A DNA stretch of 53,029 bases, taken from assembly GCA_002689385.1 (NCBI GenBank), contig NZFX01000083.1:1-53029 (forward strand), in the 5' to 3' direction. The position numbers and the translations under genes were made by a program. The notes under the pieces were generated by a model. It made no database searches. It saw only the letters and a list, made by a program, of their open reading frames with translations, and had not been told where the DNA came from. This document shows positions 3,724-52,843 of the stretch, in pieces. Each line of letters begins with the position of its first letter. Within the stretch, counting starts at the first letter, position 1. The DNA is from Phycisphaerae bacterium (lineage in GTDB: Bacteria; Planctomycetota; Phycisphaerae; Phycisphaerales; SM1A02).

Positions 3724-3731
3724 TACATTCC

Positions 3732-4940: not shown

Positions 4941-4959
4941 ACACGTTATAGGAAATACT

Positions 4960-5397: not shown

Positions 5398-5400
5398 TGC

Positions 5401-5970
5401 ATGAACTTTGCTTGTGCTTCCCATAGAAAGGCATTCACCCTTTTAGAAATAATCATTGTTGTCATTATTATTGGAATTATGTCCGCGATGATACTGCCAC
5501 GCCTTGCCGGGAACGCCAGTCGAGAATTCACGCTTACTGTTGAACGAGTTACAGATATAGTGTTGATGTACGCGCACCGAAACATCACAAGCAATCAGCC
5601 CTCTGCTTTGCAATACAACGCAAATTTAAAGGAGTTTGCCCTTCTTACAAAAGTTGAAGAAGATGGTGAACGGTTCTGGGAATTCGACCCGCTTGCCAAA
5701 CCAATAGTACTTCCAAGTTGGCTTGACCAAGACGCACTTGCCATTTATGTCGATGGAGATTTAACAGACACTTCGCAGTGGCCGGTCACTTCCACGCCCG
5801 GCGAAGCGCGCCCACTCATTGAGGTCATGTTGCAATGGGAAAATCGATCCGCTGTTATTTCACTTCCGACGCATGCCATTGGTCCAAAAGTTTGGCTTGA
5901 CGGTGAAGGCGTAGAACCGCTTATGCCAATTGATCTTGATGCACAAGGTAGAGGGCGCGAAGAATGGTAA
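5401..5970 (+). CDS. gspH: Minor pseudopilin, GspH-like
   Basis: Prepilin-type protein of 189 residues with the leader-peptide site KA|FTLLEIIIVV (Ala instead of Gly just before the cut, Glu at +5) and a single N-terminal hydrophobic helix. The position between gspG and the gspI-like gene and the size fit the minor pseudopilin GspH. The globular part is poorly conserved, so the letter assignment rests on gene order. It starts 3 bases after the gspG stop and overlaps the next gene by 7 bases. The Ala at -1 differs from the usual Gly and is tolerated in some prepilins. Confidence 0.8.
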   Translation: MNFACASHRKAFTLLEIIIVVIIIGIMSAMILPRLAGNASREFTLTVERVTDIVLMYAHRNITSNQPSALQYNANLKEFALLTKVEEDGERFWEFDPLAKPIVLPSWLDQDALAIYVDGDLTDTSQWPVTSTPGEARPLIEVMLQWENRSAVISLPTHAIGPKVWLDGEGVEPLMPIDLDAQGRGREEW

Positions 5971-6425
5971 AGCAACGGAATGGTTTTGCGCTATTAGATG
6001 TGATTATTGGCTCTGCAATGCTTGCTGTTGGGCTTGCTGTAGTCATCTCTATTAGCAGTCGATCCTTGACAAGGCAAACAAACGCTGAAAAACAGATCAC
6101 TGCTTCATGGCTTGCCGATGAGCTCATTTCAATGGTCCTGATTGTCGGGCCAGATGAATATGAAAAAGCGTACCCAAAGACAGATCAGTTCGACCCGCCC
6201 TTCCAAGATTTTTCGTACGAAATAGCACTCGACGGCGATTCTGAGTACCTTCCGGTACACGCAATTGTCACCGTTTTCTGGGTAGTTGGAGGTGGAGAAA
6301 AGTCGCTAGCTATAGAGACTGAAATAGCTCGTGTTCATGGTGAACCTGTTGACCGCTCGCCAGCAGAGCCTGTAGACCGAGAAGCACGATACTGGGAAGA
6401 TATTGAAGCGAGGGAACTAAATTGA
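5964..6425 (+). CDS. gspI: Minor pseudopilin, GspI-like
   Basis: Small pseudopilin (153 residues) with leader MVKQRNG|FALLDVIIGSAML and one hydrophobic helix (about 8-30). Size and place between the GspH- and GspJ-like genes fit GspI, which nucleates the pseudopilus tip with GspJ and GspK. Position +5 of the mature protein is Asp, not the nearly invariant Glu. The start overlaps the previous gene by 7 bases and the stop overlaps the next start (TTGA), so the genes are translationally coupled. Confidence 0.78.
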   Translation: MVKQRNGFALLDVIIGSAMLAVGLAVVISISSRSLTRQTNAEKQITASWLADELISMVLIVGPDEYEKAYPKTDQFDPPFQDFSYEIALDGDSEYLPVHAIVTVFWVVGGGEKSLAIETEIARVHGEPVDRSPAEPVDREARYWEDIEARELN

Positions 6426-7348
6426 ATCGCCGCGGCTTTACCATTATTGAACTTATGATTGCAGGCATGATGGCAACCATCGTACTAGGTGGCATCACTG
6501 TTTCGCTCTCGCAACTCGGTTCCGCAAAAGCTATAAGTAGGCAACGGCTTGAAGCATTTTCACGATGCGATAATGCTCTGCGAACAATTCGCCGTGACAC
6601 CATTACTGTATTGCGCCGAGGTGATTTGTTTGCCACGCGTGTGTTCATTTCCGACAGCACAGGAAGATATGACGGAGACATGGTTTCTCGAGATGAGTTA
6701 TTGATCTTCAATGGGAACTTACGCGCAAACAAAGAAATCGACTTTAACGGCGAAGGCTTTGAATACGAAACACAATTTAGAATTGAAGACAACGACACTG
6801 GCGTTGCTTTATGGAAACGTCGCGACCCTATTCTTGACGACAACCCAACTGGTGGCGGCATAGCAACGCCAATTTCAGAAGGTATTGTCGCAATTGAACT
6901 CGAAGCATTTGACGGAACTTCTTGGTTTAGGCAATGGGATTCTGATGAAAGCGGTATACCAGTAGCAATACGTATTACTGTAACTTCATCTGGGATGGAA
7001 GAAAATGACATTTCTACGACATCCGTGACACTGCGCACGATTGTCCCACTTGACCGTGTTCGTTCGCCAGATGATAAGCTCGTCCTCCTTGCACAGTTGC
7101 TTGACGAAGAACGTGTAGCCAATGGCGACTTTCCTGGTGAAGGTGGTGGGCTCAGCGGAAATGGTGCAGGTGCGGCAGATCGAGGTGAAACAGATGACTC
7201 GGGCTCTGGCGAAGCCGGTGGCGGTGTATCATCGGGCAATGAAACTGCTGGAGGCACTGCAGGCAATGGTGGCATCAACAGTGCAGGCGGTCGGACCACT
7301 ACGTTTGTCGCCCCCGATGGTACTGAAATTGAGATTCCAATCGAATGA
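6422..7348 (+). CDS. gspJ: Minor pseudopilin, GspJ-like, with Gly-rich tail
   Basis: Pseudopilin of 308 residues starting at TTG inside the TTGA overlap with gspI. The prepilin site RRG|FTIIELMIAG has Glu at +5 and a hydrophobic helix follows. Order and size fit GspJ. The last 70 or so residues are Gly/Ser/Ala-rich (many GG and GNG steps, about residues 235-295), beyond the usual GspJ length of about 200, and look like a flexible low-complexity extension. The stop overlaps the gspK start as ATGA. Confidence 0.8.
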   Translation: MNRRGFTIIELMIAGMMATIVLGGITVSLSQLGSAKAISRQRLEAFSRCDNALRTIRRDTITVLRRGDLFATRVFISDSTGRYDGDMVSRDELLIFNGNLRANKEIDFNGEGFEYETQFRIEDNDTGVALWKRRDPILDDNPTGGGIATPISEGIVAIELEAFDGTSWFRQWDSDESGIPVAIRITVTSSGMEENDISTTSVTLRTIVPLDRVRSPDDKLVLLAQLLDEERVANGDFPGEGGGLSGNGAGAADRGETDDSGSGEAGGGVSSGNETAGGTAGNGGINSAGGRTTTFVAPDGTEIEIPIE

Positions 7349-8643
7349 CGTGCAGAACAAAAAAACGTGGTTCCGTTATTGTGCTCTCTTTGTGGGCACT
7401 TGGGATTGCTGCAATTGTGACATCGTCCATTCAAGTTTTCTCACATCGGCAGTCCCTTCTTGGCATCGAAGTGCATGACCGCATCCAAGCGCGTTGGGCT
7501 GCACGTGCAGGTATTGAATCCTCTATAGCCGCAATGGCTGACCACACCGCAAGGCCAGTTCCAAACAACGCTTTTGCATTAGTTGACAACCTTGATTACG
7601 TTGCAAAAGGCCAAGCAGGAAAAGCAACGTGGGACATTCGGCACCACATTGAGGGCAAAGATTGGACCGGCCCGATGGATGAACACGCAAAGTTCAACAT
7701 CAACTCAGAAAACAACGCAGCCTTCCAACTTGTTATTGATGAAATTCTCGCTTTCGGCGTAATGGAATCAATCCTCGATTGGATTGATAGTGACGATGAA
7801 CCAAGGAACCTAGGCGTTGAACGAGACTATTACTTAGGACTTGAAACAAGTTACGAACCAAGAAACGGCTTGCTTCAATCCATCGCTGAACTTGAACTTA
7901 TCGCCGGCGTTATGCCCGATGATGTTCGCGGGGAAGATTGGGATTTAGATTTTCGGCTCGATGCAAATGAGGATGACGGTGGCGAAAGTTTACCTTGGGA
8001 TGAACCAGATAAATACCTTGAGGGTGGCTGGGCTTCATTACTGACAACGTCATCGGTTGAAGGTGGCGGGACAGAAAGTGGTTACGCTCGGCTCAATCTT
8101 GCGCGAGAAAATGCACAAACGCTCCAACTTCGTCTTGGCATCGAGCCCGCGCAAGCAGATGCATTGCTTGCATTTGGCGCAAGTGCAACTTCATTATCTA
8201 CCCTGCTCACGCAAACACTCCGCTCTATTTCAGGAGATGCCGAGGGCGTGACCAACCTAACGGATGACCAACTTCGAGTCATTTTCGCTGAAACATGCCT
8301 TTTTCACGCACACGAAGCACCTCCTGGCAAACTCAATATAAATACAGTTTCTCCAACAATTTTGTATCGTTTGTTTCCTGATAATTCTCGGCTTGTAGAA
8401 GAATTGATTTACCTAAGAAACAACAACGCCGGTGGCATCAGCAGCCCAGTAGACTATCTTGAAATTCCGGGCATTGAGCCGACAATGATTGATTTTATAT
8501 ATGCTCTTTTTGACACTCGATCCAACGTATTCACTATTTCGAGTCTCGGAAAAGTTGAAGGAAGTAGCGTAGAACAGGAAATTATTGTTATAGTCGACCG
8601 TTCTACCCTTCCTGTGACGATACTAGAATACCGAGAGCAATGA
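7345..8643 (+). CDS. gspK: Pseudopilus tip protein GspK
   Basis: Large minor pseudopilin (432 residues) that caps the pseudopilus. The leader TKKRG|SVIVLSLWAL lacks Glu at +5, which is the normal condition for GspK. The mature part has the GspK pattern ARAGIESS, then DEHAKFNINSEN, ILDWIDSDDEPR and, towards the C-terminus, LNINTVSPTIL followed by the GIEPTMID region. It overlaps gspJ and the next gene by 4 bases each. Assignment is firm from these motifs and gene order. Confidence 0.92.
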   Translation: MTCRTKKRGSVIVLSLWALGIAAIVTSSIQVFSHRQSLLGIEVHDRIQARWAARAGIESSIAAMADHTARPVPNNAFALVDNLDYVAKGQAGKATWDIRHHIEGKDWTGPMDEHAKFNINSENNAAFQLVIDEILAFGVMESILDWIDSDDEPRNLGVERDYYLGLETSYEPRNGLLQSIAELELIAGVMPDDVRGEDWDLDFRLDANEDDGGESLPWDEPDKYLEGGWASLLTTSSVEGGGTESGYARLNLARENAQTLQLRLGIEPAQADALLAFGASATSLSTLLTQTLRSISGDAEGVTNLTDDQLRVIFAETCLFHAHEAPPGKLNINTVSPTILYRLFPDNSRLVEELIYLRNNNAGGISSPVDYLEIPGIEPTMIDFIYALFDTRSNVFTISSLGKVEGSSVEQEIIVIVDRSTLPVTILEYREQ

Positions 8644-10547
8644 GTACCCTAACCAAATCAATAAAAGCAAGCGAAACCAACGACAATAGTTCGATTACTG
8701 CCGTTGTCCATCGAGTCGGCACAACCTGGCGGTGTGTTATCGCTGACACACATACGTCTGACCCAACGAAACGTGTCGAGTTGCTCGATGCTATCGAAGT
8801 TTCCTCAGACGAAGCGCTCGTGGCTCTTATTCAAGAGAAATCCCCAAAACGCTTGTTTGGCATCTTGCCCGGCTCTTCAACAGTATGCAGAACGACTACG
8901 CTGCCAAACGTAGGCGATGAGCAAATTTTCGAAGCGTTACGATTGCAGGTTGAAGCAAAATTATTGGGCCAAGCTGACACCCACCGCCGAGCATTTGCTC
9001 CGCTTGATGCCGCTATTGGCGAAACCAACAGAGTTGGACTCATAGTTGCTTGGCCAGAAAATGCCAAGATTACTTTTCCCCATTGCCTGGATCACGCAAG
9101 CTTCATCCCAGACGCTGCCTCTATCGCAGCATTACTCAATGGCTTTAGACCAAACGAACCGGCTGTTCTCGCTGACCCCTCAGACGGCACAGTCACAATC
9201 TCGATTTCACACGCCAACGGTTCAGCACTTCGTGCTACACGAGAAAATAATATAAGTAAGGACACATTCATTGAGGGTATTGTTCGGGTTGCAAACGAAA
9301 CTGCCACGTTGCACAACCATACTGACTCCTTCACTGAAGCCATGACCCAGCAATTGCGCGCTACCGTCGGTGTCCAGTACAACAACGATTTGCTCTTTAT
9401 TCTACCAAGTAGTATTTCTGAAAACGCATCAAAACGCGTTGCAAACACGCCCGCTGATGATGCGTCTTGGTGGTCCACTTGGGGCATTGCTATCGGTGGT
9501 CTGCTCGCGAGCACCGGGTCATTACAAAACCTCACGACTATGCGGCAACATGCTGAGGTGTTGCACCCCTCATTGGCAGATCGACTCATCACTAAGTTTG
9601 ATAATCGGTCGTTTGCACTTCGACTTGCAACTGTTGCTGTTCTTTTGCTTGCTCTTGGGCCTGCATTGTTTTCTGGCATTCGATTAGCCATGCTTGAAAT
9701 GATGAACCCCGAAATCAGCTCGCAATACAATGCACTTGTCGAATCCAGAAAACAACAAGTTATCTACAAAGAACTTGGCAAAACAGCGTGGCCGATGACA
9801 AAAGTCATAGCAGATGTTGCAAACAACATCCCCATAGGCATTGAAATTGAATCCATCCGAATTGATATTGGCCAACCTGTATCTGTTCGTGGCCGAGCAA
9901 TCAATGCTGATGGAAAGACTGCTGCGGAGCTCATTGCAAAAATGCAAACCAATTTGCAACAGACAGGTATGTTCAATGAAATCACCTTTGCCTACGACCC
10001 TGCGGGAACGTACGGCGACCGGGAGTTTGATTTATGGGCTACGGTCAGTTCCGCAATTCGAAGACCACGGTATACGACAGATCAAGATTTTGGGAAATGG
10101 ACCCTTGCAATGCGCCAAGCCGGTATCGCCCCTGAAGAAAAAGCCGTCGAAGTTGCAGCGCCTACCAACGCTTCCAATGATGAAAATGTTTCACCTATGG
10201 AATCAGCAAACGCGGATGACATTCCTCTACAAACCACACCAATTAAAACGCTCGATAATCAACCTGTCCGTGAAACAAGCCGACCTAGACCGCCAAGTGG
10301 TTCTGACAATTCAGGTGCCTCTTCACATAGCGGCAACCGCGATGCAGACAGCCCAACACTACGTGTGCCGGATCCAATATCACCAGAGCAAATAAAGTTA
10401 ATGAATCGCAGCGAAGTCATGATTGCAGTCAAAGATATTGCAGAAGCAAAGAAGCGTGTCGGCCGCGCAAATCCAGAAGTTAAAGAACGATTGCAAAAAG
10501 AATTTCGTTTGTTAATGGATCATCTGAAGGATCTCCCAAATGAGTAA
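8640..10547 (+). CDS. gspL: GspL-like assembly protein combining PilM- and PilN-like parts
   Basis: Inner-membrane assembly protein expected to link the GspE ATPase to the periplasmic parts. At 635 residues it is longer than usual GspL (about 400). Residues 1-315 look like a cytoplasmic actin-like PilM/GspL domain, one membrane helix lies at about 328-348, and about 350-470 resemble the PilN periplasmic ferredoxin-like domain (IGIEIESIRIDI region). A polar, Pro/Ser-rich linker and a charged helical tail (about 585-635) follow. It overlaps gspK (ATGA) and the next gene (8 bases). Sequence conservation is low, so order and architecture carry the call. Confidence 0.75.
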   Translation: MSTLTKSIKASETNDNSSITAVVHRVGTTWRCVIADTHTSDPTKRVELLDAIEVSSDEALVALIQEKSPKRLFGILPGSSTVCRTTTLPNVGDEQIFEALRLQVEAKLLGQADTHRRAFAPLDAAIGETNRVGLIVAWPENAKITFPHCLDHASFIPDAASIAALLNGFRPNEPAVLADPSDGTVTISISHANGSALRATRENNISKDTFIEGIVRVANETATLHNHTDSFTEAMTQQLRATVGVQYNNDLLFILPSSISENASKRVANTPADDASWWSTWGIAIGGLLASTGSLQNLTTMRQHAEVLHPSLADRLITKFDNRSFALRLATVAVLLLALGPALFSGIRLAMLEMMNPEISSQYNALVESRKQQVIYKELGKTAWPMTKVIADVANNIPIGIEIESIRIDIGQPVSVRGRAINADGKTAAELIAKMQTNLQQTGMFNEITFAYDPAGTYGDREFDLWATVSSAIRRPRYTTDQDFGKWTLAMRQAGIAPEEKAVEVAAPTNASNDENVSPMESANADDIPLQTTPIKTLDNQPVRETSRPRPPSGSDNSGASSHSGNRDADSPTLRVPDPISPEQIKLMNRSEVMIAVKDIAEAKKRVGRANPEVKERLQKEFRLLMDHLKDLPNE

Positions 10548-11139
10548 TCAACTTCGGCAGCTACTCGAACAAGTCTCCGCTTGGTCGCGGGCAATGCAAT
10601 GGGCTTTCTGGTCCATCATTTTCACATTGGCTTTTCTCGTGTGGGACGCAACTGTTGCAGACATCGGTGCGCAATGGTCAGCAAAGGCAAATGAGATTAA
10701 AATGCAAATCCAAGAAGTGAATAAACCAATTCAACTGACTTCTTCTGACAAGAAAAATATTGCAACGTTTGGCGAGGTTTCACTCCCCCGCAGCAAAGCA
10801 ATTGGGACTGCAGAGATGACCGATGCCGTACACGCTATTCTTGAATCACACAATGTAAAGAATGATGAGTACACTCGAACAAAAACAACTCGAATGAAAT
10901 CTGGCTCATTACCAGGGATCGCAAAATCAGGCCAGCAGATTGAACAAATTATTGGCGATATTCGATTCGAAGCGACTCAAGAAGATATTCTTAAAGTCAT
11001 TGCTGACCTAGAAAGTAGCTCAGCCATTGATACTGTTTCCGATATTCGACTCACACGCAAAGAAGGTCGACTGATCCGAGTCGACCTAGCCGTTGAAGCG
11101 TGGGTCGTCGCAAGTTCAAGCAGGAAAGGTCGAAGATAA
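10540..11139 (+). CDS. gspM: GspM/PilO-like membrane protein
   Basis: Bitopic protein of 199 residues with a membrane helix at about 20-40 (WAFWSIIFTLAFLVW) and a periplasmic part with a coiled stretch and a ferredoxin-like region. Size, topology and place after the GspL-like gene fit GspM or PilO, which pair with GspL/PilN to form the inner-membrane ring. The start overlaps the preceding gene by 8 bases and the stop shares a base with the next start (TAATG). No residue-level signature identifies the family. Confidence 0.68.
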   Translation: MSNQLRQLLEQVSAWSRAMQWAFWSIIFTLAFLVWDATVADIGAQWSAKANEIKMQIQEVNKPIQLTSSDKKNIATFGEVSLPRSKAIGTAEMTDAVHAILESHNVKNDEYTRTKTTRMKSGSLPGIAKSGQQIEQIIGDIRFEATQEDILKVIADLESSSAIDTVSDIRLTRKEGRLIRVDLAVEAWVVASSSRKGRR

Positions 11140-11741
11140 TGGAACTTGACAAACTCAAAGGCCCTTTAGGCTGGAGTGCACTCTCTATTCTCGTGATTCT
11201 CATTCTTTGCTTTATGGGTGTTTCTTCAGTACTTACGCCACTTCTGGGTCAATCCAGTAGCGGAGTCTCATCGAATGCTTCAAGCACACTACTAGAGCAA
11301 TACGACACTAACGTGCGAATGGACATCGACCGATTCAATGGTCGATCGGCTTTCTTCAAGCCAATCCGGATTGTTAAAAACGTACCAGCACCTCCGCCAC
11401 CACCGCCCAGGCAGGACACGCCAGACGTTCCAGATAAAATCGTCGATGAAGGGCCACCACCACCCCCAGCACGGTATATGGGACCACCCCTAATCGCTAT
11501 AATTGGGGAAGAAGCATGGTTCAGGGGCTCAGGCAGCGGGCCTGATGCTGTCATGCGGATTAAAATTGGAGAAGAAAACCAGGGTGTAAAAGTGGTTAGC
11601 ACGAATGCACCTTCCCAAGTGACCGTCGAACATCGTGGTGGTGTATATCCTATTCCGCTTTTTGAATCGAGTGAAGACTTCTTCACCCAAGAGGCTCCCG
11701 CACACGCGCCAGACAACTTTTTAAAAGAGGTCGAGGGGTAA
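11139..11741 (+). CDS. gspC: GspC/PilP-like protein
   Basis: Bitopic protein of 200 residues. I chose the ATG at 11139, which overlaps the previous stop as TAATG, over an upstream GTG inside gspM. A membrane helix spans about 12-34, a Pro-rich stretch follows (PPPPPP and DEGPPPPPARY, about 85-115), and the C-terminal part (about 115-190) has the GspC HR / PilP look, with PLIAIIGEEAW and VEHRGGVYPIPL. This protein would connect the inner-membrane platform to the secretin. GspC is usually the first gene of the operon; here it comes last before the gap to gspD. Confidence 0.68.
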   Translation: MELDKLKGPLGWSALSILVILILCFMGVSSVLTPLLGQSSSGVSSNASSTLLEQYDTNVRMDIDRFNGRSAFFKPIRIVKNVPAPPPPPPRQDTPDVPDKIVDEGPPPPPARYMGPPLIAIIGEEAWFRGSGSGPDAVMRIKIGEENQGVKVVSTNAPSQVTVEHRGGVYPIPLFESSEDFFTQEAPAHAPDNFLKEVEG

Positions 11742-11964
11742 CTAAGCGCTGCGATCCTTCGCTGGATATTTCCAAAATCTCCAGAGTCTAATATTTCGCT
11801 TTTCTGTTACGAGGAGCCCTATTTTGCCGATGAAAGTCCGATAGGTATTCTTCACATACATACAAAAATAGAAGTAATATTCCCCCTAATCTAACGTTAT
11901 TCTCTTTCCTGAAGTTGGCCATTTGTAGTCCAAATAAAAAGAGCAGAGAGAAGGAATCTAAAAA
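11742..11964. other. Gap between gspC and gspD
   Basis: A 223-base A/T-rich stretch without a supportable gene. It probably carries the promoter or leader of gspD; a purine-rich GAGAGAAGGAA near 11945-11955 is the likely ribosome binding site of the GTG start. No clear terminator hairpin was found. Confidence 0.4.
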
Positions 11965-14574
11965 GTGAGCAAAGTCAACGTGATACAAATCAAACTCCTC
12001 GTAGCAACAGCCATTACAAGCGTTGCATTTGCACAAGACCGCCCTGCTCCTGAGTCAGCACCAACTATTGAGATTCCTGAGATAGTGGAGGAAGTCATCG
12101 TAGAGGTTCCGGCTGAAGACATTGTCATCGAAGAAATAATTATTGAAGAGCCCGTTCCGACAAAAGAGGTTGAAGTTCTTACCGGCCCTGATGTCGCAAA
12201 AATGATCCGGTGGCCTTTGAAAGTCCCCATTCCATCAGGCCTTGTAGTTCTTGCTTTCAACGAGGTCGCTATCGAGGACACGCTTGGGTTTATTGCTCAA
12301 ACGACAGGCAAAGTTGTCATTCCAGTAAGCGCGACGTCGCTGCGCGCGAAGAAAGTTACACTGCGCAACAACGAGCCCGTCGATCGTGCCGTTGCACTCG
12401 ACCTTCTCTTTCAGGCATTTCGATTGAACCAAGTCGGCGTTATCGAACGCGACGATATGATTATCATTGGCCCGCTTGATTCTATGCTCGGTGACATCGG
12501 CGACATCCCCGTTCTTGGCGTAGATGACAATGTAATGAATCGTCAAGACCGTGGCACACTCGTCATTAAGGTGTTTAGTATTGAGCGAACTGAAGCCGCT
12601 GTTATTGGCGACCGCATAAATGAGATGTTTCCCGACTATGGATCTTTAACAGTTTATCCTGTGTCAAATCAAATCGTGCTTCTTGGCGACGTCGGTCTTT
12701 GCCAGCGAATCCAAGTGCTCATTGATCAACTCGATCGAATTTGGCGAAGTGGTGAAGTAAAAACATTTCGTCTCAAATATGCAGATGCTTCAGAAATTTC
12801 CACGAACATTCTAGACCTTTTTGATGAATCTGGTTCTTCGTCATCCAGCAGTAGCTCGAACAACAGAAACCAACGTAATGCAAGAACGCAAACTTCAACA
12901 ACATCTGGTTCTGAAAAAGTCGAGTTGCGCCTCACCGTAAACATGCAACAAAATTCGGTCACTGTGCAAGCAGAGCCAGATGTTATGGAAGACATTGAAG
13001 AGCTTATCATGAGCGAGTGGGATTTACCACGCCCGACTGAAACCAGCAAAATGTATGTCTTGCAATACAGTGACCCAATTAAAATCCGTAATTTGCTTCA
13101 AGAAATTTTAGGTGATGGGTCATCCAATAGTGGTGGCAGTGTAAGAGGCGGGCAACAAGCAGGACGTGCTGATGTGACCGAAGCAATGAGCGGAGTCTAT
13201 CGTTTTGAAGCGTACCCAGATAAAAATGCGTTGTTAGTTTTATCAAAGACTGAAGAAAGCTTCGCGTTTCTTGATTCGATTATTGATTCACTCGATATGC
13301 CAAGCGATGTTGGATTGCCTAAAGTCGTGGAACTAAAACATGCTGACGCTGTCTCACTTTCAGAAGAAATCAACGCGCTTCTTGCATCACCCGGTGTTTC
13401 TGCAACAATCCAACGGCCAGACGTCGGTCTCTCTGGGGAGGGCTTTGGCGATTCTGCAACAGCAACGGATAATGAATCGGGTGGGCAAATGGGTTTCCCA
13501 TGGCAACAAGGCGGTGCAAACTCTGATGACCAATCGCCTGAATCATCTTTAATCGCAAAGATACGCCTCGTGCCAATCGTAAGACAAAATGCTCTTGCAA
13601 TTGTTGCACCACCAGAATATATGCAACATGTTCTTGACGTCATAGATGAATTTGATAGACCAACAAGGCAAGTTATGATTTCCGCAACTATTGCTTCGGT
13701 CACACTTGCAGATGACCTTACAGTCGGACTTCGATGGGGTTCTGGTGTCAGTGGCGATGGCGACAACTCCATTGGTGTTAGCGGCGCTCTACAAGATGCC
13801 CAAATCACCGACATTCTTGGCGGCATCTTCTCGGGTGGTGGAGCAGTCCTCGATGTCACTGGGTCTGTCGGTGTAGCGCTTGATGCATTAAACAAGTTAA
13901 CAAATGTTCGTATTATCCAACAGCCAAGAACATTCACTGCAGATAACAAAGAATCCATCTTCTTCAATGGCTCCGAAGTACCCGTCCGAACAACAAGCAA
14001 CACCACGAGCGCTGGTCTAGTTGAAGGCGGTTTTGATTACCGTGATGTAGGCGTCATGTTGAATGTTCGACCACGCATCACTGCTCACGGTGATGTCGAC
14101 CTGACGATTAATGTTGAACTTTCCGATCAAGCAGGAACCGGCGTTGGGGACAACCCCGTATTTACTCGCCGGCAAGTACGAAGTCAAATCCAACTTCGGG
14201 ATGGCCAAACAGTCTTGATTGGTGGCATTCTAAAAGAAAGTGAATCGAAGACAAAGCGAAAATTCCCTCTCCTTGGCGACATTCCGTTGATTGGCGCCCT
14301 CTTTACCTCCGTCGATGACACAACGATTCGCGAAGAGCTGCTCGTCTTTATCACGCCAACCATTGTTGAAACGCTAAACGACAACGGAGATAATTACAAC
14401 CTTGACTACCTCCAACGATTACAAGAGATTTCCTTGCCTGTCGACCAACAAATAAAGCGAATTGAATCAAATAAAAATGATTTCCTTGTCGAGCGTTTAC
14501 GAAATCCAGCGGCAGACTACACACCAGATAGTGAAGCAATTCAGTCAACGTTCGATGCTGCTGAAGTCGAATAA
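11965..14574 (+). CDS. gspD: Type II secretion secretin GspD
   Basis: Outer-membrane secretin of 869 residues. The GTG start follows a purine-rich ribosome site; residues 1-23 are a signal peptide (cleavage near AFA|QD). An acidic Val/Ile/Glu-rich stretch (about 30-70) precedes the N0 and N-domain repeats (about 85-560), interrupted by Ser-rich (about 289-300) and Gly/Ser-rich loops. The C-terminal secretin domain (about 570-810) has the signatures VPVRTTSN, YRDVGVMLNVRPRI and LIGGILKE...FPLLGDIPLIGALF. It lies 223 bases after gspC, probably with its own promoter. The acidic stretch after the signal peptide is unusual. Confidence 0.96.
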   Translation: MSKVNVIQIKLLVATAITSVAFAQDRPAPESAPTIEIPEIVEEVIVEVPAEDIVIEEIIIEEPVPTKEVEVLTGPDVAKMIRWPLKVPIPSGLVVLAFNEVAIEDTLGFIAQTTGKVVIPVSATSLRAKKVTLRNNEPVDRAVALDLLFQAFRLNQVGVIERDDMIIIGPLDSMLGDIGDIPVLGVDDNVMNRQDRGTLVIKVFSIERTEAAVIGDRINEMFPDYGSLTVYPVSNQIVLLGDVGLCQRIQVLIDQLDRIWRSGEVKTFRLKYADASEISTNILDLFDESGSSSSSSSSNNRNQRNARTQTSTTSGSEKVELRLTVNMQQNSVTVQAEPDVMEDIEELIMSEWDLPRPTETSKMYVLQYSDPIKIRNLLQEILGDGSSNSGGSVRGGQQAGRADVTEAMSGVYRFEAYPDKNALLVLSKTEESFAFLDSIIDSLDMPSDVGLPKVVELKHADAVSLSEEINALLASPGVSATIQRPDVGLSGEGFGDSATATDNESGGQMGFPWQQGGANSDDQSPESSLIAKIRLVPIVRQNALAIVAPPEYMQHVLDVIDEFDRPTRQVMISATIASVTLADDLTVGLRWGSGVSGDGDNSIGVSGALQDAQITDILGGIFSGGGAVLDVTGSVGVALDALNKLTNVRIIQQPRTFTADNKESIFFNGSEVPVRTTSNTTSAGLVEGGFDYRDVGVMLNVRPRITAHGDVDLTINVELSDQAGTGVGDNPVFTRRQVRSQIQLRDGQTVLIGGILKESESKTKRKFPLLGDIPLIGALFTSVDDTTIREELLVFITPTIVETLNDNGDNYNLDYLQRLQEISLPVDQQIKRIESNKNDFLVERLRNPAADYTPDSEAIQSTFDAAEVE

Positions 14575-34593: not shown

Positions 34594-34605
34594 TAGCGAT
34601 TGCTT

Positions 34606-34974
34606 GTGGACGATAAGCCGGATTCTGTCGTGAACGGCCATTCATCTACGTTTACTGTTGCCAGCAAACTTTTGCACGCGACCCGTCCTCATTCCTCGGA
34701 CAAGGACATTCACAAAAGTGAATCGAGAACTGCTTGCGCTTGCACGCGGTGGGGTTTACCAAAGCCATGCCTGTCACCAAGCACGCGGTGCGCTCTTACC
34801 GCACCTTTTCACCCTTACCTGTGTTACGTCGAAACGTAACCATCGGCGGTCTAACTCTCTGTGGCACTGAGCCCTTACCTGCAATCAAAGGCGGGTGGAC
34901 GTTATCCACCACCGTGTCCTACCGTGTCCGGACTTTCCTCGCGTTTCTTACGAAACCCGCGACCGTCTATCCAC
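34606..34974 (-). ncRNA. rnpB: RNase P RNA, bacterial class A
   Basis: Catalytic RNA that removes the 5' leader of tRNA precursors. Read on the minus strand, it contains the universal GAGGAAAGTCCGG (CRI) near 34930, an AGGTAAGGGTGAAA core element near 34810-34825 and the 3' signature ACAGAATCCGGCTTAT ending near 34613. The ends pair (GTGGAT at the 5' end with GTCCAC at the 3' end, P1), which sets the limits and gives 369 nt, normal for type A. A minus-strand TACAAT at 34986-34981 is a well-placed -10 box. Apparent ORFs on the plus strand here are shadows. Confidence 0.95.
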
Positions 34975-35008
34975 GTGCATATTGTACGCCATCAAGTACA
35001 CTGCGTAC

Positions 35009-39965: not shown

Positions 39966-40096
39966 TCATTTTCAATCCGCAAAACCGACATAATCAGCGT
40001 ATCATGATGTGTAATTGAAACAAACCATGTCTTTCAGGCGTTGTATTGATGTCTTTTTTCCTACACGCCGAAACTTTATTCACAGGAGGTTCACAA

Positions 40097-40459
40097 ATGA
40101 ACAAAACACTACTTGGACTAACATTAACTGCACTCGCAACCACTTCTATGCTTGGTTGCAACAAAACTGAAGAAGGTGCTACTTGGGGTGCAGGCATTGG
40201 CGCTTTAGCTGGGCAAGCCATAGGTGGCGACACCGGCGGAACGCTCATTGGAGCTGGTGTAGGCGCACTGATTGGCGGCGCGATTGGCAACGACCAAGAG
40301 CAACAAAATCAGCGGCATCAACAACAAGCTGATGGCTCAACGATTCATCGAACAACCATTCATGAAACACTTAACCCAGACGGAACCGTTACTCGAACAG
40401 GAACAACCACTACTACTTCAAGCCAAACTAGTGATGGCTATACAGGTCTAGAAGATTAA
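40097..40459 (+). CDS. Glycine-zipper lipoprotein 1
   Basis: Small lipoprotein of 120 residues. ATG 40097 is preceded by AGGAGG at good spacing. The signal ends in a lipobox MLGC (Cys at about residue 21). A glycine-zipper segment with GxxxG spacing follows (GAGIGALAGQAIGGDTGG..., about 29-60), the kind that forms two membrane-inserting hairpin helices. The polar Gln/Thr-rich tail is unique to this copy. A paralogue lies 211 bases downstream. Function unknown; such proteins usually sit in the outer membrane or envelope. Confidence 0.85.
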   Translation: MNKTLLGLTLTALATTSMLGCNKTEEGATWGAGIGALAGQAIGGDTGGTLIGAGVGALIGGAIGNDQEQQNQRHQQQADGSTIHRTTIHETLNPDGTVTRTGTTTTTSSQTSDGYTGLED

Positions 40460-40468
40460 ACAACTCAG

Positions 40469-40657
40469 ATGAAAACTGTTTTATTATTAATTTTTTTCTG
40501 TAGTGCAACTGCTTGTGCAAAAACGCAAAAAAATTCTCAAAGAACGCAGCCGCTGGATGCAATTGTAAACGGTACGTTTGCAACTGACGCTGCAATGCAA
40601 GAAGAACGAACTATACAAGGTGATTACATCGCCGAACAAGAAGAACGGTATGAATAA
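40469..40657 (+). CDS. Small exported protein, possibly a lipoprotein
   Basis: A 62-residue ORF 9 bases after the first glycine-zipper gene. It begins with a lysine, a hydrophobic core (VLLLIFFCSATA) and a Cys at about residue 16, a weak lipobox (ATAC). The rest is polar and acidic (QEERTIQGDY, EQEERYE). Its placement between two paralogous lipoprotein genes on the same strand supports expression. No family recognised. Confidence 0.5.
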   Translation: MKTVLLLIFFCSATACAKTQKNSQRTQPLDAIVNGTFATDAAMQEERTIQGDYIAEQEERYE

Positions 40658-40670
40658 TAAAGGAATAAGA

Positions 40671-40880
40671 ATGAAAAAATTACTCGCAACAATCGCAATA
40701 ACTTCCGTAGTCATATTCTCTATGACCGGTTGCAATAAAACGCAAGAAGGTGCTGGTGTTGGCGCAGCAGTCGGCGCACTCGCCGGCTTAGCCATAGGTG
40801 GAGATACAGCAGGAACACTGATCGGTGCTGGCGCAGGTGCACTTGTTGGCGGAGCTGTAGGCAACGACCAAGATAATTAA
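40671..40880 (+). CDS. Glycine-zipper lipoprotein 2
   Basis: Lipoprotein of 69 residues. ATG 40671 has AGGA six bases upstream. The lipobox is SMTGC, and NKTQEG after the Cys matches NKTEEG of the first copy. The glycine-zipper part is nearly the same as in copy 1, with identical GGDTxGTLIGAG spacing, but the polar tail is missing. It is clearly a paralogue from tandem duplication. A strong terminator follows 21 bases after the stop. Confidence 0.85.
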   Translation: MKKLLATIAITSVVIFSMTGCNKTQEGAGVGAAVGALAGLAIGGDTAGTLIGAGAGALVGGAVGNDQDN

Positions 40881-41137: not shown

Positions 41138-43276
41138 TTACGGCAAGAAAATCATCACGGATGTGTTGGGTAGATTCAGAGCGCCATTTAACCGAGCTGC
41201 TGCATCAGCCAAACTGCCACTTGAATTTTCTGCTAAATCAACAACACGAGCAAGTTGCCAATCTCCGGTAAGGTTTCCCCAGCGGCGAACAGAACTCGCC
41301 GACTCATCTAGAAGCATGACTTGTGTTTCTGTAGAATCAGATGCTAATGCAGCTTCAACTAATGCACCCTGTGCTTTTGCACTATCAATCATTGAAAGTG
41401 TTTCAGCAATGACTACCTTGGAATCTGCATCTGCGATTGCAAGCGCTTCAACCAATGGTGTTGTTGCATCTTCAACGCGGAGTACCGAATCTGCAAGTGC
41501 GATATCTCGAAGCACCGCAAGCGCACGAGTAGAAAAGGCGCTTTGTTCTTCAAAACTTAAACGACCTCCTGCCGCTAAGCTGATAAGGTCTTCAATTATT
41601 GCTAAACGTGTCGAATCGGATTTATCAAGGTGCGTAACTGCAACCATCGAGTTACCGTCGAGCATATTTGATAACACTTGCTCGTCAGTACCTTCCGCGA
41701 GCAGAAACACTGGCGTAACCATTGTGTTAGGTAGCAGCGATGCTTGCTCAGTGATAATCTGCCCATGTTCGACACTGCGTGTCAAGCCAACAAGCAAATC
41801 GATACCTGCAACAGCACCCGCTGATGTAATTGCCTCATCAACAGAAGTCCCCTCGCCAACAACGGTCCAGTTATTTGCACTTAAGAACGCACGGATTTCT
41901 CGCCGGGCATCCGCATCATCGCCCACAACAATTGCAAATGATTCGCCTTGCTGGCGAATGGCAGACGCGAGTAATGGAACAACCCGGTAACTTCCCTCAA
42001 ATGAATCCTCTGGAAGTGTGGAAGCAAGAGTAAGTGCCGCTTCATATTGCACACGTCTATCAGGGTAGTTCATCGCAACTACAATTGGCTGCGAACTGGT
42101 ACCGAGTAACGCTTCTGCGCCTGCGGTTTCTGAAAGCGCAGCAATTGAATCAAGCACCAATGGCGTGTCGCTATCGTTCATTGATGATGTCAACACAAGC
42201 TGTGCGATTCTTGGCCCGAAGACTGTTGCATAAAACTCAGGGCTATACGCAAGATCGCCATAAACCAAATCGTCTCGACCTGCGAGTGCTCGGTTTCGGC
42301 GTAAGTTAGCACCGACAAAAGTACCCATTGCAGCAGCGTTATCGGCATCTGCTGAGAGCGCCTTCGAAGCAAAGTACATAGCCATCACATCAAAAAAAGC
42401 CTCCGATGGAACATCGAGCGCAACAAGTTGGTTGCCCGCATCCCATTCCCAAAACAAATTCAAACCGCCAATTGGCTGTGGCTGAAGCGAAGTTTCACCA
42501 TCATAGAATCTGTTTGCAACAACCGTTTGCAATGCAGAAAGATTACTTGCTTGTGTGCTAACACCCAACATACCAAGTGCCGCTTGCGCGGAAGTTCGAA
42601 CATCACTTGCATTATTTTCATTATTTGCACAAATGAGTAATGCTGGCGCAGCATGCTTGTACCCAATCTCACCAAGAATCTTCGCAACAAGTACTTTTGT
42701 TTCAGCGTCAACGTTTGGCAAAGCCGAACTTAAAGGCAAAACTGCATCGCGTCCTAGTCGAGTAAGCATTTCTCGAGCATTCTTAACACCACGAACATCG
42801 CTGCCGTTTTGCAATTGGCGAAGTAGCAGTGGCACTGCGTATTCGCCCGCTTCTTGCAATCGTTCATCTGCAAGGATACGTTGGCGAGTTGAACCATTGA
42901 GTAATTCAATTGATTCCGCAAGATTTTCTGCATTTCGAATTACACTGACTCGACCCGCTTCAAACTTATCTTCAAGCATAGAAGCGAGCGGCTCGAGGTC
43001 TTCAATAAAAAGCGCCCAGCCAATAGCACGGTCAAATCGCTGATGACGCTCTTTGGTCGCGATAACCATCTTATAGAAGTCCTCGTTCGACATAGCATCG
43101 CGAACAAGCGCCAATGCATACGCATCAGTAAATTCAACATTCGCTATCAATGCGTAATGAATAAAATCATCAAGTGCCGTTTCGGCATCCGATTCTTGTG
43201 CAATGACAGTTGGCTGAATAAGCGCAATTGTGAGTGCGAAAATAGCGAGGGTAAAACGATTTCTAAAATTGAACAT
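41138..43276 (-). CDS. Exported HEAT-repeat protein with an embedded receiver-like segment
   Basis: Protein of 712 residues with a signal peptide (about 1-26, cleavage near VIA|QE) and GGAG 7 bases before the ATG. Residues about 130-240 show HEAT-type repeats (AVPLLLRQL, KVLVAKILGEIGYKHAAPALL, RTSAQAALGML), and further helical repeats continue (about 290-440 and 580-690). Between them, about 445-570, is a segment like a response-regulator receiver: FAIVVGDDADARREIRAFL with an acidic pair, then GIDLLVG where the phosphoacceptor Asp would be missing, and VAVTHLDKSD. HEAT proteins are scaffolds for protein contacts; the partner is unknown. Confidence 0.8.
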   Translation of the reverse strand: MFNFRNRFTLAIFALTIALIQPTVIAQESDAETALDDFIHYALIANVEFTDAYALALVRDAMSNEDFYKMVIATKERHQRFDRAIGWALFIEDLEPLASMLEDKFEAGRVSVIRNAENLAESIELLNGSTRQRILADERLQEAGEYAVPLLLRQLQNGSDVRGVKNAREMLTRLGRDAVLPLSSALPNVDAETKVLVAKILGEIGYKHAAPALLICANNENNASDVRTSAQAALGMLGVSTQASNLSALQTVVANRFYDGETSLQPQPIGGLNLFWEWDAGNQLVALDVPSEAFFDVMAMYFASKALSADADNAAAMGTFVGANLRRNRALAGRDDLVYGDLAYSPEFYATVFGPRIAQLVLTSSMNDSDTPLVLDSIAALSETAGAEALLGTSSQPIVVAMNYPDRRVQYEAALTLASTLPEDSFEGSYRVVPLLASAIRQQGESFAIVVGDDADARREIRAFLSANNWTVVGEGTSVDEAITSAGAVAGIDLLVGLTRSVEHGQIITEQASLLPNTMVTPVFLLAEGTDEQVLSNMLDGNSMVAVTHLDKSDSTRLAIIEDLISLAAGGRLSFEEQSAFSTRALAVLRDIALADSVLRVEDATTPLVEALAIADADSKVVIAETLSMIDSAKAQGALVEAALASDSTETQVMLLDESASSVRRWGNLTGDWQLARVVDLAENSSGSLADAAARLNGALNLPNTSVMIFLP

Positions 43277-43382: not shown

Positions 43383-43388
43383 TATAAT
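43383..43388 (+). promoter_or_regulatory. -10 box of the cobalamin riboswitch transcript
   Basis: A perfect TATAAT places the transcript start near 43395, two bases before the riboswitch P1 stem. A TTGACA at 43352 lies too far away (25 bases) to be its -35. Confidence 0.55.
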
Positions 43389-43396
43389 CTCATTTG

Positions 43397-43609
43397 TCAG
43401 GGCGTCATGCAGCTGTTCTGCATGATTGGCACAGAATTGTGCCAAAGGGAAGGTGGTGAAAAACCACCGCGGACGCGCCGCCGTAACGAGAATGCCGAAC
43501 TATATATAGAATCAATCTATGTCTACAAGGTACGAATTGCATCAATGTAACTGCTCATTTGAGTAGGAACACGAGCAAAACGACTCGGAGCCGGAAAATC
43601 TCCCCTGAT
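43397..43609 (+). ncRNA. Cobalamin riboswitch
   Basis: Binds adenosylcobalamin-type cofactors in the mRNA leader. The conserved core matches the E. coli btuB element position by position: AGGGAA at 43446-43451, the GGTGG-TGAAAA-ACCACC hairpin, GGACGCGCCGCCGTAACG, then ATGCCGAAC (43492-43500). The 3' part has GACTCGGAGCCGG (43582-43594). The ends close as P1: TCAGGG (43397-43402) with CCCTGA (43603-43608). Two perfect hairpins precede the core (CATGCAG/CTGCATG and TTGGCAC/GTGCCAA). It controls the dockerin-like protein and pseudopilin downstream. Confidence 0.88.
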
Positions 43610-43696
43610 TATCAGTGTTGCCTGCGCGAATCAGGCCACGACGCTGTGCCATACGTGGCATTTCTCGTGACTTTCGCAACGGCCTTTTATGGAGAT
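43598..43696 (+). promoter_or_regulatory. Riboswitch expression platform
   Basis: CCTGATT (43604-43610) overlaps the 3' arm of P1 and is also complementary to AATCAGG (43629-43635), so P1 and this helix exclude each other. ATCTCC (43598-43603) is complementary to the ribosome site GGAGAT (43691-43696), and GCCACG (43635-43640) and TGCCA (43647-43651) compete for CGTGGC/TGGCA (43654-43660). This layout suggests translational control by hiding the ribosome site. No terminator T-run is present. Confidence 0.55.
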
Positions 43697-43701
43697 CGCG
43701 A

Positions 43702-44583
43702 ATGTCGCCACTCACAATTATTGTTTTTTCATTACTCACAAATCCCTGGGCTGACTCAGTCGTCTCTTTCGATGAAGGCATCGGCGGAAGTGCCGGCTAC
43801 AACATACCGGAAGTAGCACTCGGTGAACCTAGCCGTTTCACTGGCGAAGATATTTGGCCTGGCGTTGTTAGTCCATTCAACCCACCATGGCTTGCTGATG
43901 AAATTGTTTCGATTGGTGCAGGTGGTTCTATCGTTGTTTCTTTTGTTGAACCTGTACAGAATGAACTAGGCAATCCCTGGGGCATTGACCTTATTATCTT
44001 TGGTAACACGGGCTGTGTTGACAACGCGTATCCAAAAGGAGTTGTCGGTGGAGCGTTCAGTGATGACGGTGGGCAAATTGAAGTTTCACAAGACGGCAAA
44101 ATATGGTATCCAATCGCAACTGAATTTTCGGATGGCCTTTGGCCAACGAGGGGATATCTAGATAGCCAGCCCTACGATGCCGTTGAGGGCACACAACCAA
44201 GTACTTTCACGTTACCCGTTGACCCTCGCCTTTCGCTCGATGATGTTATGAATCTTGATAACGATGCGCTTATGTCGTTCTACGGAACTTCAGGCGGTGG
44301 AACTCCAATTGACATCGGCGAAACTGGATTAAATGAAATTTCATTTGTTCGAGTTTCTGTTGACCCTAGCTCTAAACTTTCACCTGAAATCGATGGATTC
44401 GCTGATGTTTCTGCGCAAATACCTGGTGATGTTGATATGAATGGCACCATCGACGTGAATGATTTGCTTTTACTCATTGGTTCTTTTGGGCCACTTGAAA
44501 TCGGGGCTCCACTTGCAGATTTCAACAGCGACTTCATAGTGAATGTAACTGATTTACTTGTAATCATCGATAACTGGTCATGA
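43702..44583 (+). CDS. Secreted protein with C-terminal dockerin-like repeats, B12-regulated
   Basis: ATG 43702 has GGAG 7 bases upstream; longer frames run into the riboswitch. Residues 1-17 form a signal peptide (cut near PWA|DS). The main domain (about 20-235) is strand-rich with many Gly and Asp, including EIVSIGAGGSIVVSFVEP, GIDLIIFGNTG and EVSQDGKIWYP; this pattern resembles surface proteins of B12-regulated loci in other phyla, by my recollection only. The last 50 residues carry two calcium-loop motifs, DVDMNGTIDVNDLL and DFNSDFIVNVTDLL, as in dockerin type I. It is the first gene after the cobalamin riboswitch. A role in capturing or sensing corrinoids is inferred. Confidence 0.82.
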   Translation: MSPLTIIVFSLLTNPWADSVVSFDEGIGGSAGYNIPEVALGEPSRFTGEDIWPGVVSPFNPPWLADEIVSIGAGGSIVVSFVEPVQNELGNPWGIDLIIFGNTGCVDNAYPKGVVGGAFSDDGGQIEVSQDGKIWYPIATEFSDGLWPTRGYLDSQPYDAVEGTQPSTFTLPVDPRLSLDDVMNLDNDALMSFYGTSGGGTPIDIGETGLNEISFVRVSVDPSSKLSPEIDGFADVSAQIPGDVDMNGTIDVNDLLLLIGSFGPLEIGAPLADFNSDFIVNVTDLLVIIDNWS

Positions 44584-44589
44584 TCAAAC

Positions 44590-45240
44590 ATGAAAAAAGG
44601 TTTTTCCCTTATTGAAATACTTGCGGTCATCGCGATTGTTGGAATCCTCACTTCGGTGTTGGTTCCAGTAATCAGCGGCGGCTACGCCCATTCAAAAACT
44701 GCAGTGTGTAAAAATATGCAACGGCAACTTGTTGTAGCGGGAGCTGCGTATCAAAATGACCACAATGCCTTTCCTCCATCAGTCGTTTCCATGTTTGAAC
44801 ATTGGGATAGCGAAACTGTGCTCTGGCAATATGTTGGTAATACAAAAGAAACAATGGTATGCCCTGAACATTATGACGATCAGTTCTCGACAACTGGATT
44901 TAATTACAACACGTCGTTTCTTGGCGATGAATACATAATTGGAAGTGGCGCGCTACTAAAAGGGGTTGTTCCTTCAAGTTGTTCTCATCCGGCTCAATGT
45001 GCAATGTTCGGCGATGGATTTGACAATAAATTCATGCGCTCGACTTTGAGCAACTTATCCACTCGATGCGGCGGAAGACAAGCATTTCGACATAATCACT
45101 TTACTGTAGTCGGATGGCTTGATGGGCACGTCACCGCGCAGGACAAAAAATTTAACAACAACTGCGACAATGTTCCTGATGTCGGCTTTCTCAGCAATGA
45201 CGACAGTGCCTATGACCCTCGAACCCTGACGCTCTACTAG
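44590..45240 (+). CDS. Pseudopilin-like protein with H-X9-DG motif, B12-regulated
   Basis: Prepilin-type protein of 216 residues, 6 bases after the dockerin-like gene and so under the same riboswitch. The leader MKKG|FSLIEILAVIAIVGIL has Glu at +5 and a single hydrophobic helix. The C-terminal part contains HNHFTVVGWLDG, an exact H-X9-DG motif typical of the large pseudopilin-like families of Planctomycetes. Several Cys residues could form disulfides. It needs a prepilin peptidase. A repeat copy and the convergent moeA follow. Function unknown. Confidence 0.85.
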   Translation: MKKGFSLIEILAVIAIVGILTSVLVPVISGGYAHSKTAVCKNMQRQLVVAGAAYQNDHNAFPPSVVSMFEHWDSETVLWQYVGNTKETMVCPEHYDDQFSTTGFNYNTSFLGDEYIIGSGALLKGVVPSSCSHPAQCAMFGDGFDNKFMRSTLSNLSTRCGGRQAFRHNHFTVVGWLDGHVTAQDKKFNNNCDNVPDVGFLSNDDSAYDPRTLTLY

Positions 45241-52769: not shown

Positions 52770-52843
52770 GGCGATCGTAGCTCAGTTGGTAGAGCACCGG
52801 GTTGTGATCCTGGATGTCGCGGGTTCAAGCCCCGTCGGTCGCC
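52770..52843 (+). tRNA. tRNA-His (GTG anticodon)
   Basis: All four arms fold: the acceptor GCGATCG/CGGTCGC, D arm GCTC/GAGC, anticodon arm CCGGG/CCTGG with loop TTGTGAT, and T arm GCGGG/CCCGT with TTCAAGC. The anticodon GTG reads His codons. G at 52770 pairs with C at 52843, the G-1:C73 pair unique to tRNA-His. The 3' CCA is not encoded; a T-run (52845-52849) follows directly. Confidence 0.96.

Follow-up and report, generated by a model that had tools for sequence, protein, structure and literature searches.

Genes behind a cobalamin riboswitch are, by the usual logic of this family, made when vitamin B12 is scarce. Here, such a riboswitch and the two genes that follow it are described from a Phycisphaerae bacterium, in a stretch of 53,029 nucleotides (nt) (contig NZFX01000083.1, positions 1 to 53,029, assembly GCA_002689385.1), the whole of which is called the window in the following. 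The first gene, P1, encodes a predicted secreted protein whose main domain appears, from sequence and modelled structure, to be a distant relative of BtuH, which captures B12 in Bacteroides. The second gene, P2, encodes an orphan pseudopilin (Table 1).

Table 1. Features of the riboswitch locus in the window.
Feature	Position	Strand	Basis
Cobalamin riboswitch aptamer (RF00174)	43383..43621	+	cmscan
Leader hairpin, loop GCGCGAATC	43620..43636	+	stem pairing across genus sequences
Shine-Dalgarno-like GGAG ahead of ATG 43702	43691..43694	+	no variation of GAG and ATG among ten genus sequences
P1, secreted protein (predicted), BtuH-like jelly-roll domain and C-terminal dockerin-like loop pair	43702..44583	+	open reading frame (ORF), start by conservation
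P1 BtuH-like domain	43744..44415	+	alignment A1, AlphaFold2, Foldseek, VIA
P1 dockerin-like calcium loops	44422..44568	+	PF00404, below cut-off
P2, orphan prepilin/pseudopilin, riboswitch-linked family	44590..45240	+	PF07963, TIGR02532, AlphaFold2
H-X9-DG motif of P2	45091..45126	+	regular-expression match

The riboswitch and the two genes of the cassette

A cobalamin riboswitch had been claimed for this locus in the first-pass annotation of the window, and the Infernal/Rfam run bore this out: the match to RF00174 covers model positions 1-189 and scores 42.7 bits, which exceeds the curated gathering cut-off of 31.5 bits. A search of the whole 1.94 Mb assembly found no second cobalamin riboswitch, and no sigma-70-like promoter was found upstream of the one described here. 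The fold of the window leader has a z score of -1.66. Across ten sequences of the genus (the window and nine others) the stem of the leader hairpin changes between CCT/AGG (four), CCC/GGG (four) and TCC/GGG or TCC/GGA (two). Its loop GCGCG is the complement of a CGCGC in the aptamer, the latter being present in 10/10 genus aptamers and GCGCG downstream of the aptamer in 9/10. Pairing between loop and aptamer is expected for this class of riboswitch, and we take the pair to be a candidate L5-L13 kissing loop.

The start of P1 is best set at ATG 43702, and the invariance of the GAG and of this ATG in the ten genus sequences is consistent with translational control of P1, presumably exerted via the GGAG region. 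A second pairing between Shine-Dalgarno and anti-Shine-Dalgarno sequences, ATCTCC in the aptamer with GGAGAT, is visible in the window and was dropped because the genus does not keep it.

Both genes had been described in the annotation, P1 as a signal-peptide protein with two dockerin loops. The ORF and the two loops are seen and the signal peptide was judged by eye; PF00404 stays at 16.7 bits, under its cut-off of 22.9, and the tail is therefore called dockerin-like and is not classed as dockerin type I. Some riboswitch-linked relatives pass this cut-off (L090 with 33.0 and L097 with 34.0 bits). An identity of P1 with DUF4465/BtuJ was also considered and rejected, no such match being present among the Pfam families at E<=1. 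For P2 the description was accurate: the gene begins after a gap of 6 nt, the prepilin motif scores above cut-off in PF07963 (25.1/21.2 bits) as well as TIGR02532 (29.8/16.3 bits), and the H-X9-DG motif is exact.

Conservation of the cassette

The cassette was counted in a first set of 61 genomes, the window's own and 60 relatives. It was recorded where P1 (>=60 bits) and/or P2 (>=100 bits) lay on the same strand within 3 kb downstream of a riboswitch, and the loci used to iterate the profiles of both proteins are also the ones counted here. Since simple ORF calling mis-framed some GC-rich loci, the later counts use stop-to-stop frames; riboswitch searches over more than 40 genomes were run with stricter filters.

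A cobalamin riboswitch was detected in 55 of the 61 genomes (54 above cut-off, five genomes with two), and a P1 match in 46. Within 3 kb of the riboswitch, both genes are present in 45 of the 55 genomes, P1 in 46, P2 in 49 and at least one of the two in 50. A chance association of the riboswitch with P1 and P2 is therefore very unlikely. Neither gene was found in five riboswitch genomes: in G007, G022 and G041 the contig ends less than 900 nt from the riboswitch, in G012 the riboswitch contig lay outside the fetched loci and the riboswitch match moreover falls short of the Rfam cut-off, and the fifth is G048, which is described below. Among the six genomes in which the riboswitch was undetected, G008, G017 and G033 nevertheless have P1 and P2, and a P1 match is absent from G026 (72% complete), G035 (80%) and G045 (98%).

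A second set was drawn from a named genome collection as the best 80 of 202 relatives, of which 23 were probably already in the first set and were excluded. The other 57 were analysed as 50 and 7. A riboswitch lies at most 1 kb upstream of P1 in 45 of the 50 genomes, in one of them (G085) below the Rfam cut-off, and the five unlinked loci are L164 (388 nt of upstream sequence), L176, L184, L195 and L204. In the seven further loci, cmscan placed a riboswitch ahead of P1 in six, L234 exactly at the cut-off; the exception, L224, has only about 230 nt of upstream sequence. The record titles of the second set are mostly Phycisphaerales, Phycisphaerae or Planctomycetota. Some P1-bearing contigs (L164, L195, L200, L207, L209) belong to records titled Caulobacteraceae, Kuenenia, Limnohabitans or Bacteroidia; these are probably mis-binned or mis-titled contigs of planctomycetes.

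The riboswitch occurs together with P1 and/or P2 across the families f1-f6, and the flanking ORFs, compared by size and strand, vary. The first-pass annotation had suggested a search for riboswitch-linked homologues in related genomes, and neither of the two outcomes that it had named as speaking against its proposal, the lack of a riboswitch hit above threshold and the lack of any such association, was observed.

P1 is related to BtuH

The AlphaFold2 model of P1 was built from a 32-sequence alignment (A1, 32 of 39 P1 domains) and has a mean predicted local distance difference test (pLDDT) score of 94.6 and a predicted template-modelling score of 0.91. Its sole Foldseek match below 0.001 is BtuG1 of B. 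thetaiotaomicron (8blw_B, 2.3e-6). In the structure comparison with VIA the best rows are BtuH2 (7biz_B, Z 12.9) and the H-domain of BtuG1 (8blw_B, Z 12.4), the next row having a Z of 9.6; both comparisons thus assign the domain a BtuH-type fold.

On sequence level the connection is made solely through intermediates, from alignment A1 via alignment A3 to 7biz and 8blw. In other families, two P1-like proteins linked to the riboswitch can be matched to BtuH2 and the BtuG1 H-domain by plain sequence. A3 comprises nine of 12 divergent P1-like domains, L097, L135 and L096 being excluded as too divergent, and its profile matches 8blw with 3.8e-29 and 7biz with 2.1e-21 over the span of the domain. 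Between the profiles of A1 and A3, hhalign gave a probability of 99.4% and an E-value of 6.2e-22. For BtuH2 eight residues contacting B12 have been listed, Asn399 among them (PMC8941943); mapped onto P1 after a check of the numbering, Asn399 aligns with an asparagine invariant in 32/32 P1 sequences of A1.

Because of the VIA and Foldseek matches and the transitive sequence homology, the P1 domain is regarded, from sequence and model, as a distant relative of BtuH by descent and fold, and as a putative corrinoid binder. P1 is not filed as BtuH itself, since it has neither a lipobox, and with it a lipidation signal, nor a btuB neighbour in an operon.

P2 is a dedicated pseudopilin

The AlphaFold2 model of P2 (pLDDT 89.3) shows the long N-terminal helix of pilins (residues 7-58). 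A Foldseek search of the PDB with this model returned nothing below 0.001, the top rows being type IV pilins. In alignment A2 (34 of 55 P2 domains), His168, Asp178 and Gly179 of the H-X9-DG motif are invariant or reach a conservation of 90% or more. As a type II secretion pseudopilin, P2 falls below the equivalog cut-offs of GspG (27.6/88.85 bits) and GspH (25.7/80 bits), and its match to DUF1559 is weak (13.2/23.3 bits).

Relatives of P2 are numerous, with 6 to at least 44 matches to the P2 profile in each of the 61 genomes. A single hit above 170 bits stands out in 50 of them, every further hit scoring 121.9 bits or less. By position, 43 of these 50 strong hits are the riboswitch-linked gene; in G007, G012, G041 and G060 the strong hit and the riboswitch lie on different contigs, and in G008, G017 and G033 the riboswitch was undetected. 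Because there is one strong hit per genome, which mostly is the riboswitch-linked gene, P2 is, judged by its sequence, a dedicated riboswitch-linked orthologue in most examined genomes of the order and not a random prepilin neighbour.

Cassette variants and other targets of the riboswitch

Other families of the order have longer cassettes, in which the riboswitch is followed by a propeller-like protein, a P1-like protein and P2, or alternatively by P1, a PQQ_2 propeller and P2. The propeller of L085 has a clear Pfam match to PQQ_2, that of L094 stays below the cut-off, and for those of L090, L091, L093 and L097 the propeller-like character was judged by eye. With the propeller-like protein of L090 no sequence match to BtuG was detectable in the PDB. 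The suggestion that the two-gene locus is a minimal version of a larger one agrees with these cassettes, since some members of the order carry an extra gene, in one case a clear PQQ_2 propeller.

In G048 a TonB receptor follows the riboswitch. It scores best with the vitamin B12 receptor family, at 269.9 bits and thus below the cut-off of 599.7, and the genome has neither P1 nor a strong P2 hit.

In the wider phylum, 169 of 199 sampled planctomycete genomes have the riboswitch. In the 30 loci with the best-scoring, and thus not randomly chosen, riboswitches, the 1.5 kb covered downstream contain no P2 match in the orientation of the riboswitch; this distance is too short to reveal a P2 that follows a longer cassette. 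Ten phylum loci were picked by eye for a Pfam search and comprise seven TonB receptors, two BtuF-like proteins and one PKD protein, a split that is for this reason not an unbiased rate. The PKD protein belongs to another planctomycete family (G120, L241:1752-3188), where the riboswitch leads into a protein with PKD and BtuH-type domains (the latter with 2.8e-38), which is the layout of BtuH2. Since phylum loci lead into TonB receptors or BtuF-like genes, the riboswitch can serve classical B12 uptake in planctomycetes; in the order of the window, P1 and P2 mostly take that place. As a separate observation, in four loci of other planctomycetes (L239, L242, L251, L259) the strand opposite to the riboswitch carries prepilin-type genes nearby, which score 96-145 bits with the P2 profile.

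B12 dependence, transport and secretion genes

CbiC, the sole corrin-ring marker searched (other pathway genes and MetE were not), was found in 0/61 genomes and in 7/14 controls; to judge from this gene, planctomycetes of the window's order seem unable to make B12. B12-binding domains are present in 61/61 genomes, and the window's genome has a MetH methionine synthase as well as a mutase-type B12 domain, both above cut-off. TonB-receptor plugs were found in 0/13 genomes of the genus, compared with 3/14 controls, in a search that did not include ExbBD/TonB; overall, 25 of the 61 genomes have them.

Permeases of the FecCD type, to which BtuC belongs, are present in 60/61 genomes and BtuF-type binding proteins in 56/61, counted with families (PF01032, PF01497) that also include transporters for siderophores/iron and heme. 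The annotation had considered that BtuF/BtuC-type genes might join the cassette; in the window's genome they lie on contigs other than the window's. An unlinked ATP-binding cassette (ABC) unit (G000, contig C59) was evaluated as a B12-specific transporter and could not be assigned, the best family of its permease being BtuC, below cut-off, and that of its ATPase heme; the BtuF of the corresponding unit was examined in G001.

Secretins are present in 61/61 genomes. The window itself contains a type II secretion-like cluster (2113-14574, +) about 30 kb upstream of the cassette, in which an ATPase, an inner-membrane protein, several pseudopilins and a GspK-like protein were recognized by eye and a secretin (PF00263, 13885-14370) by profile.

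Proposed function and alternative explanations

The reading that we favour, and hold to be reasonably likely, is a riboswitch-controlled two-gene module for the capture and scavenging of corrinoids at the cell surface, which probably depends on type II secretion-like machinery for its export or display. At a low internal corrinoid level the riboswitch would permit the production of P1 and P2, the direction of control being presumably that of its family. P1 would leave the cytoplasm via its Sec-type signal and would be displayed outside the cell, anchored by its dockerin-like tail or, in relatives, by a PEP-CTERM tail, where it would capture cobamides in the fashion of BtuH. P2 may join machinery of the type II secretion or pilus type as a cassette-specific pseudopilin and, presumably in contact with P1, help to bring or hold P1 at the surface. 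An unlinked ABC unit of the BtuF/BtuC/BtuD type may carry the corrinoid through the inner membrane. A surface device for corrinoid capture under B12 control, as proposed in the first-pass annotation, has gained strong support from the BtuH fold and transitive homology of P1 and from the conserved link to the riboswitch, with corrinoid binding staying putative.

Several observations weigh against this reading, most of them concerning P1. The Foldseek match to 8blw_B is partial (template-modelling score 0.43 by query length, root-mean-square deviation 15.5 over 309 columns), as is the VIA alignment with 7BIZ, which covers 142 of 224 residues at 3.5 Å, and the fold is also common to sugar-binding modules of the CBM32/F5-8 type (VIA Z 8.2-9.4). 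Direct PDB sequence searches with P1 or the P1 family profile did not find BtuH, and a search with the divergent P1-like protein L097 returned no BtuH, only dockerins and a few weak rows. Among the eight listed contacts of BtuH2 only Asn399 is clearly retained in P1: Gln333 is kept in the intermediates and lost in P1, Trp577 is lost, the position of Phe401 is variable in the P1 family and occupied by glycine in the window, and around His476, Tyr510 and Trp511 the sequences are not alignable. No lipobox cysteine was seen by eye in the signal region of P1, and the cassette itself contains no transporter gene.

Further points of this kind come from the genome comparison. G045, although 98% complete, lacks both riboswitch and P1, and a P2 hit above 170 bits is missing in 11/61 genomes (G022, G026, G035, G037, G042, G044, G045, G046, G048, G050, G057), six of which (G037, G042, G044, G046, G050, G057) have a weaker riboswitch-linked P2. 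In G044 (L100), G057 (L136) and at one of the two loci of G056 (L095) a small PEP-CTERM-type protein replaces P1, and P2 is kept. These three proteins have PEP-CTERM-type signals alone, several of them below cut-off, and no BtuH match, and for that of L095 no relative was found in the PDB; by analogy of position they are possibly other corrinoid binders.

The same three loci, at which P2 is retained beside another protein, are what would be expected if P2, with P1, were itself the outer-membrane importer, a retractable pseudopilus drawing corrinoid-loaded P1 through the secretin and so replacing BtuB. The universal presence of secretins fits this as well, as does the lack of a TonB plug in 13/13 genomes of the genus and in 29 of the 50 cassette genomes, and the riboswitch of G048 precedes a BtuB-like receptor in a genome with neither P1 nor a strong P2. 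However, TonB plugs are present in the other 21 cassette genomes, the swap in G048 is a single case, and we know of no pseudopilus that imports a vitamin. Furthermore, a Synechococcus co-culture study names outer-membrane B12 receptors among the genes of B12-requiring members, including a Phycisphaera bin (PMC7029141). A pseudopilus may have replaced BtuB as the import route, which would fit the genomes devoid of TonB receptors and the G048 swap and is not required by the data; as an uptake fibre proper, we consider the cassette unlikely. According to the broader proposition, where B12-auxotrophic planctomycetes have no TonB receptors, the riboswitch-controlled BtuH-like protein and its dedicated pseudopilin would together make up an outer-membrane machine for corrinoid acquisition, by capture or by import, that works independently of TonB and replaces BtuB under the same riboswitch. 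This proposition is a bold one and rather unlikely.

The proximity of the P1 fold to CBM32/F5-8-type modules leads to a different explanation, in which P1 would be a carbohydrate-binding surface protein with which the cell attaches, at low B12, to partners producing the vitamin, and P2 would be a part of an attachment pilus. A pilin together with dockerin or PEP-CTERM parts would suit surface attachment, and an attached Phycisphaera bin in the Synechococcus co-culture lacks MetE and the B12 synthesis genes (PMC7029141). Set against this, the two B12-binding structures lead the next row by about 3 Z units, and the riboswitch-linked intermediates are BtuH homologues by sequence, which makes adhesion as the function quite improbable. 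Least probable is an explanation by old synteny, in which two ordinary secreted proteins, P1 and P2, would have inherited a riboswitch and would have no function related to B12. It is true that the compared genomes are related and that a divergent upstream gene of about 712 amino acids is often kept too in family f1; yet the riboswitch with P1 and/or P2 persists across f1-f6 while the flanking ORFs change, P1 is homologous to a B12-binding domain, and an unrelated planctomycete couples the riboswitch to the PKD and BtuH-type protein with the BtuH2 layout.

Relation to known systems

The surface capture module proposed here has its closest counterpart in BtuH2 (BT_1956) of B. thetaiotaomicron (PDB 7BIZ), which, as described in PMC8941943, resembles P1 in its jelly-roll domain, in the cobalamin-riboswitch locus, in the Asn399 contact and in its extracytoplasmic location (predicted for P1) in B12 scavengers. 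P1 ends in a dockerin-like tail, its relatives also in a PEP-CTERM tail, whereas BtuH2 is a lipoprotein that carries Ig/PKD domains at its N-terminus (PMC8941943); a lipidation signal is listed for both BtuH1 and BtuH2 (PMC12751083). More than 80% of the gut btuH homologues stand in operons with btuB (PMC8941943), whereas P1 has a pseudopilin as its partner instead of a transporter; a TonB plug at the riboswitch was seen in just one of the 61 genomes, G048, which lacks P1. A gene for a propeller-like protein adjoins the BtuH-like gene in some relatives of the order (PQQ_2 shown for L085 only), which recalls BtuG1 with its H-domain (PDB 8BLW; PMC10404256). BtuG1 is complexed with BtuB1, a TonB transporter (PMC10404256); the cassette has no such receptor linked to it, and in the genus none was found.

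BtuJ and DUF4465 proteins are secreted cobalamin binders with a beta-jelly-roll, BtuJ occurring in riboswitch loci and the family reaching the PVC (Planctomycetes, Verrucomicrobia, Chlamydiae) group (PMC13398666, PMC12751083). P1 likewise is a jelly-roll protein, riboswitch-linked and predicted to be secreted, and differs in having no DUF4465 match in Pfam. P2 shares the prepilin motif, the long N-terminal helix and H-X9-DG with the pseudopilins of type II secretion systems and type IV pili and with the H-X9-DG (DUF1559-type) prepilins of planctomycetes; unlike these, it passes no equivalog cut-off and forms a riboswitch-linked orthologue group of its own.

BtuH has been reported from gut Bacteroidetes plus three Firmicutes hits (PMC8941943). 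A full-text search for BtuH together with planctomycetes returned no paper, and no published description of the riboswitch-P1-P2 cassette was found in the searched literature, which excludes subscription journals and preprints. The view of the annotation that the system is undescribed therefore holds for this literature and has to be narrowed with regard to the domain type of P1: new is the combination of a BtuH-related domain and a pseudopilin as a riboswitch cassette in planctomycetes, and already known is BtuH-type B12 capture in Bacteroides.

The BtuH-related domain thereby appears as the main target of riboswitch control in a planctomycete order that is seemingly unable to make B12 and in which many members have no detected TonB receptor. 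This raises the question of how a large vitamin passes the outer membrane without BtuB, and which part the pseudopilin has in it. In addition, it offers a clue to the function of one clade of the H-X9-DG-type prepilins, which are numerous in these genomes. Many waters hold little B12, and how such bacteria scavenge it is therefore relevant to the modelling of aquatic communities.

Neighbouring features of the window

Divergently oriented to the cassette, the window encodes a secreted-looking protein of about 712 amino acids (41138-43276, -) without a NCBIfam match, and a gene of similar size and orientation lies upstream of the riboswitch in many members of family f1. Two tandem genes for small glycine-zipper proteins (40046-40880, +) have lipoprotein-like starts and look like duplicates. 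An RNase P RNA of class A is located at 34598-34978 (-) and a tRNA gene at 52771-52843 (+).

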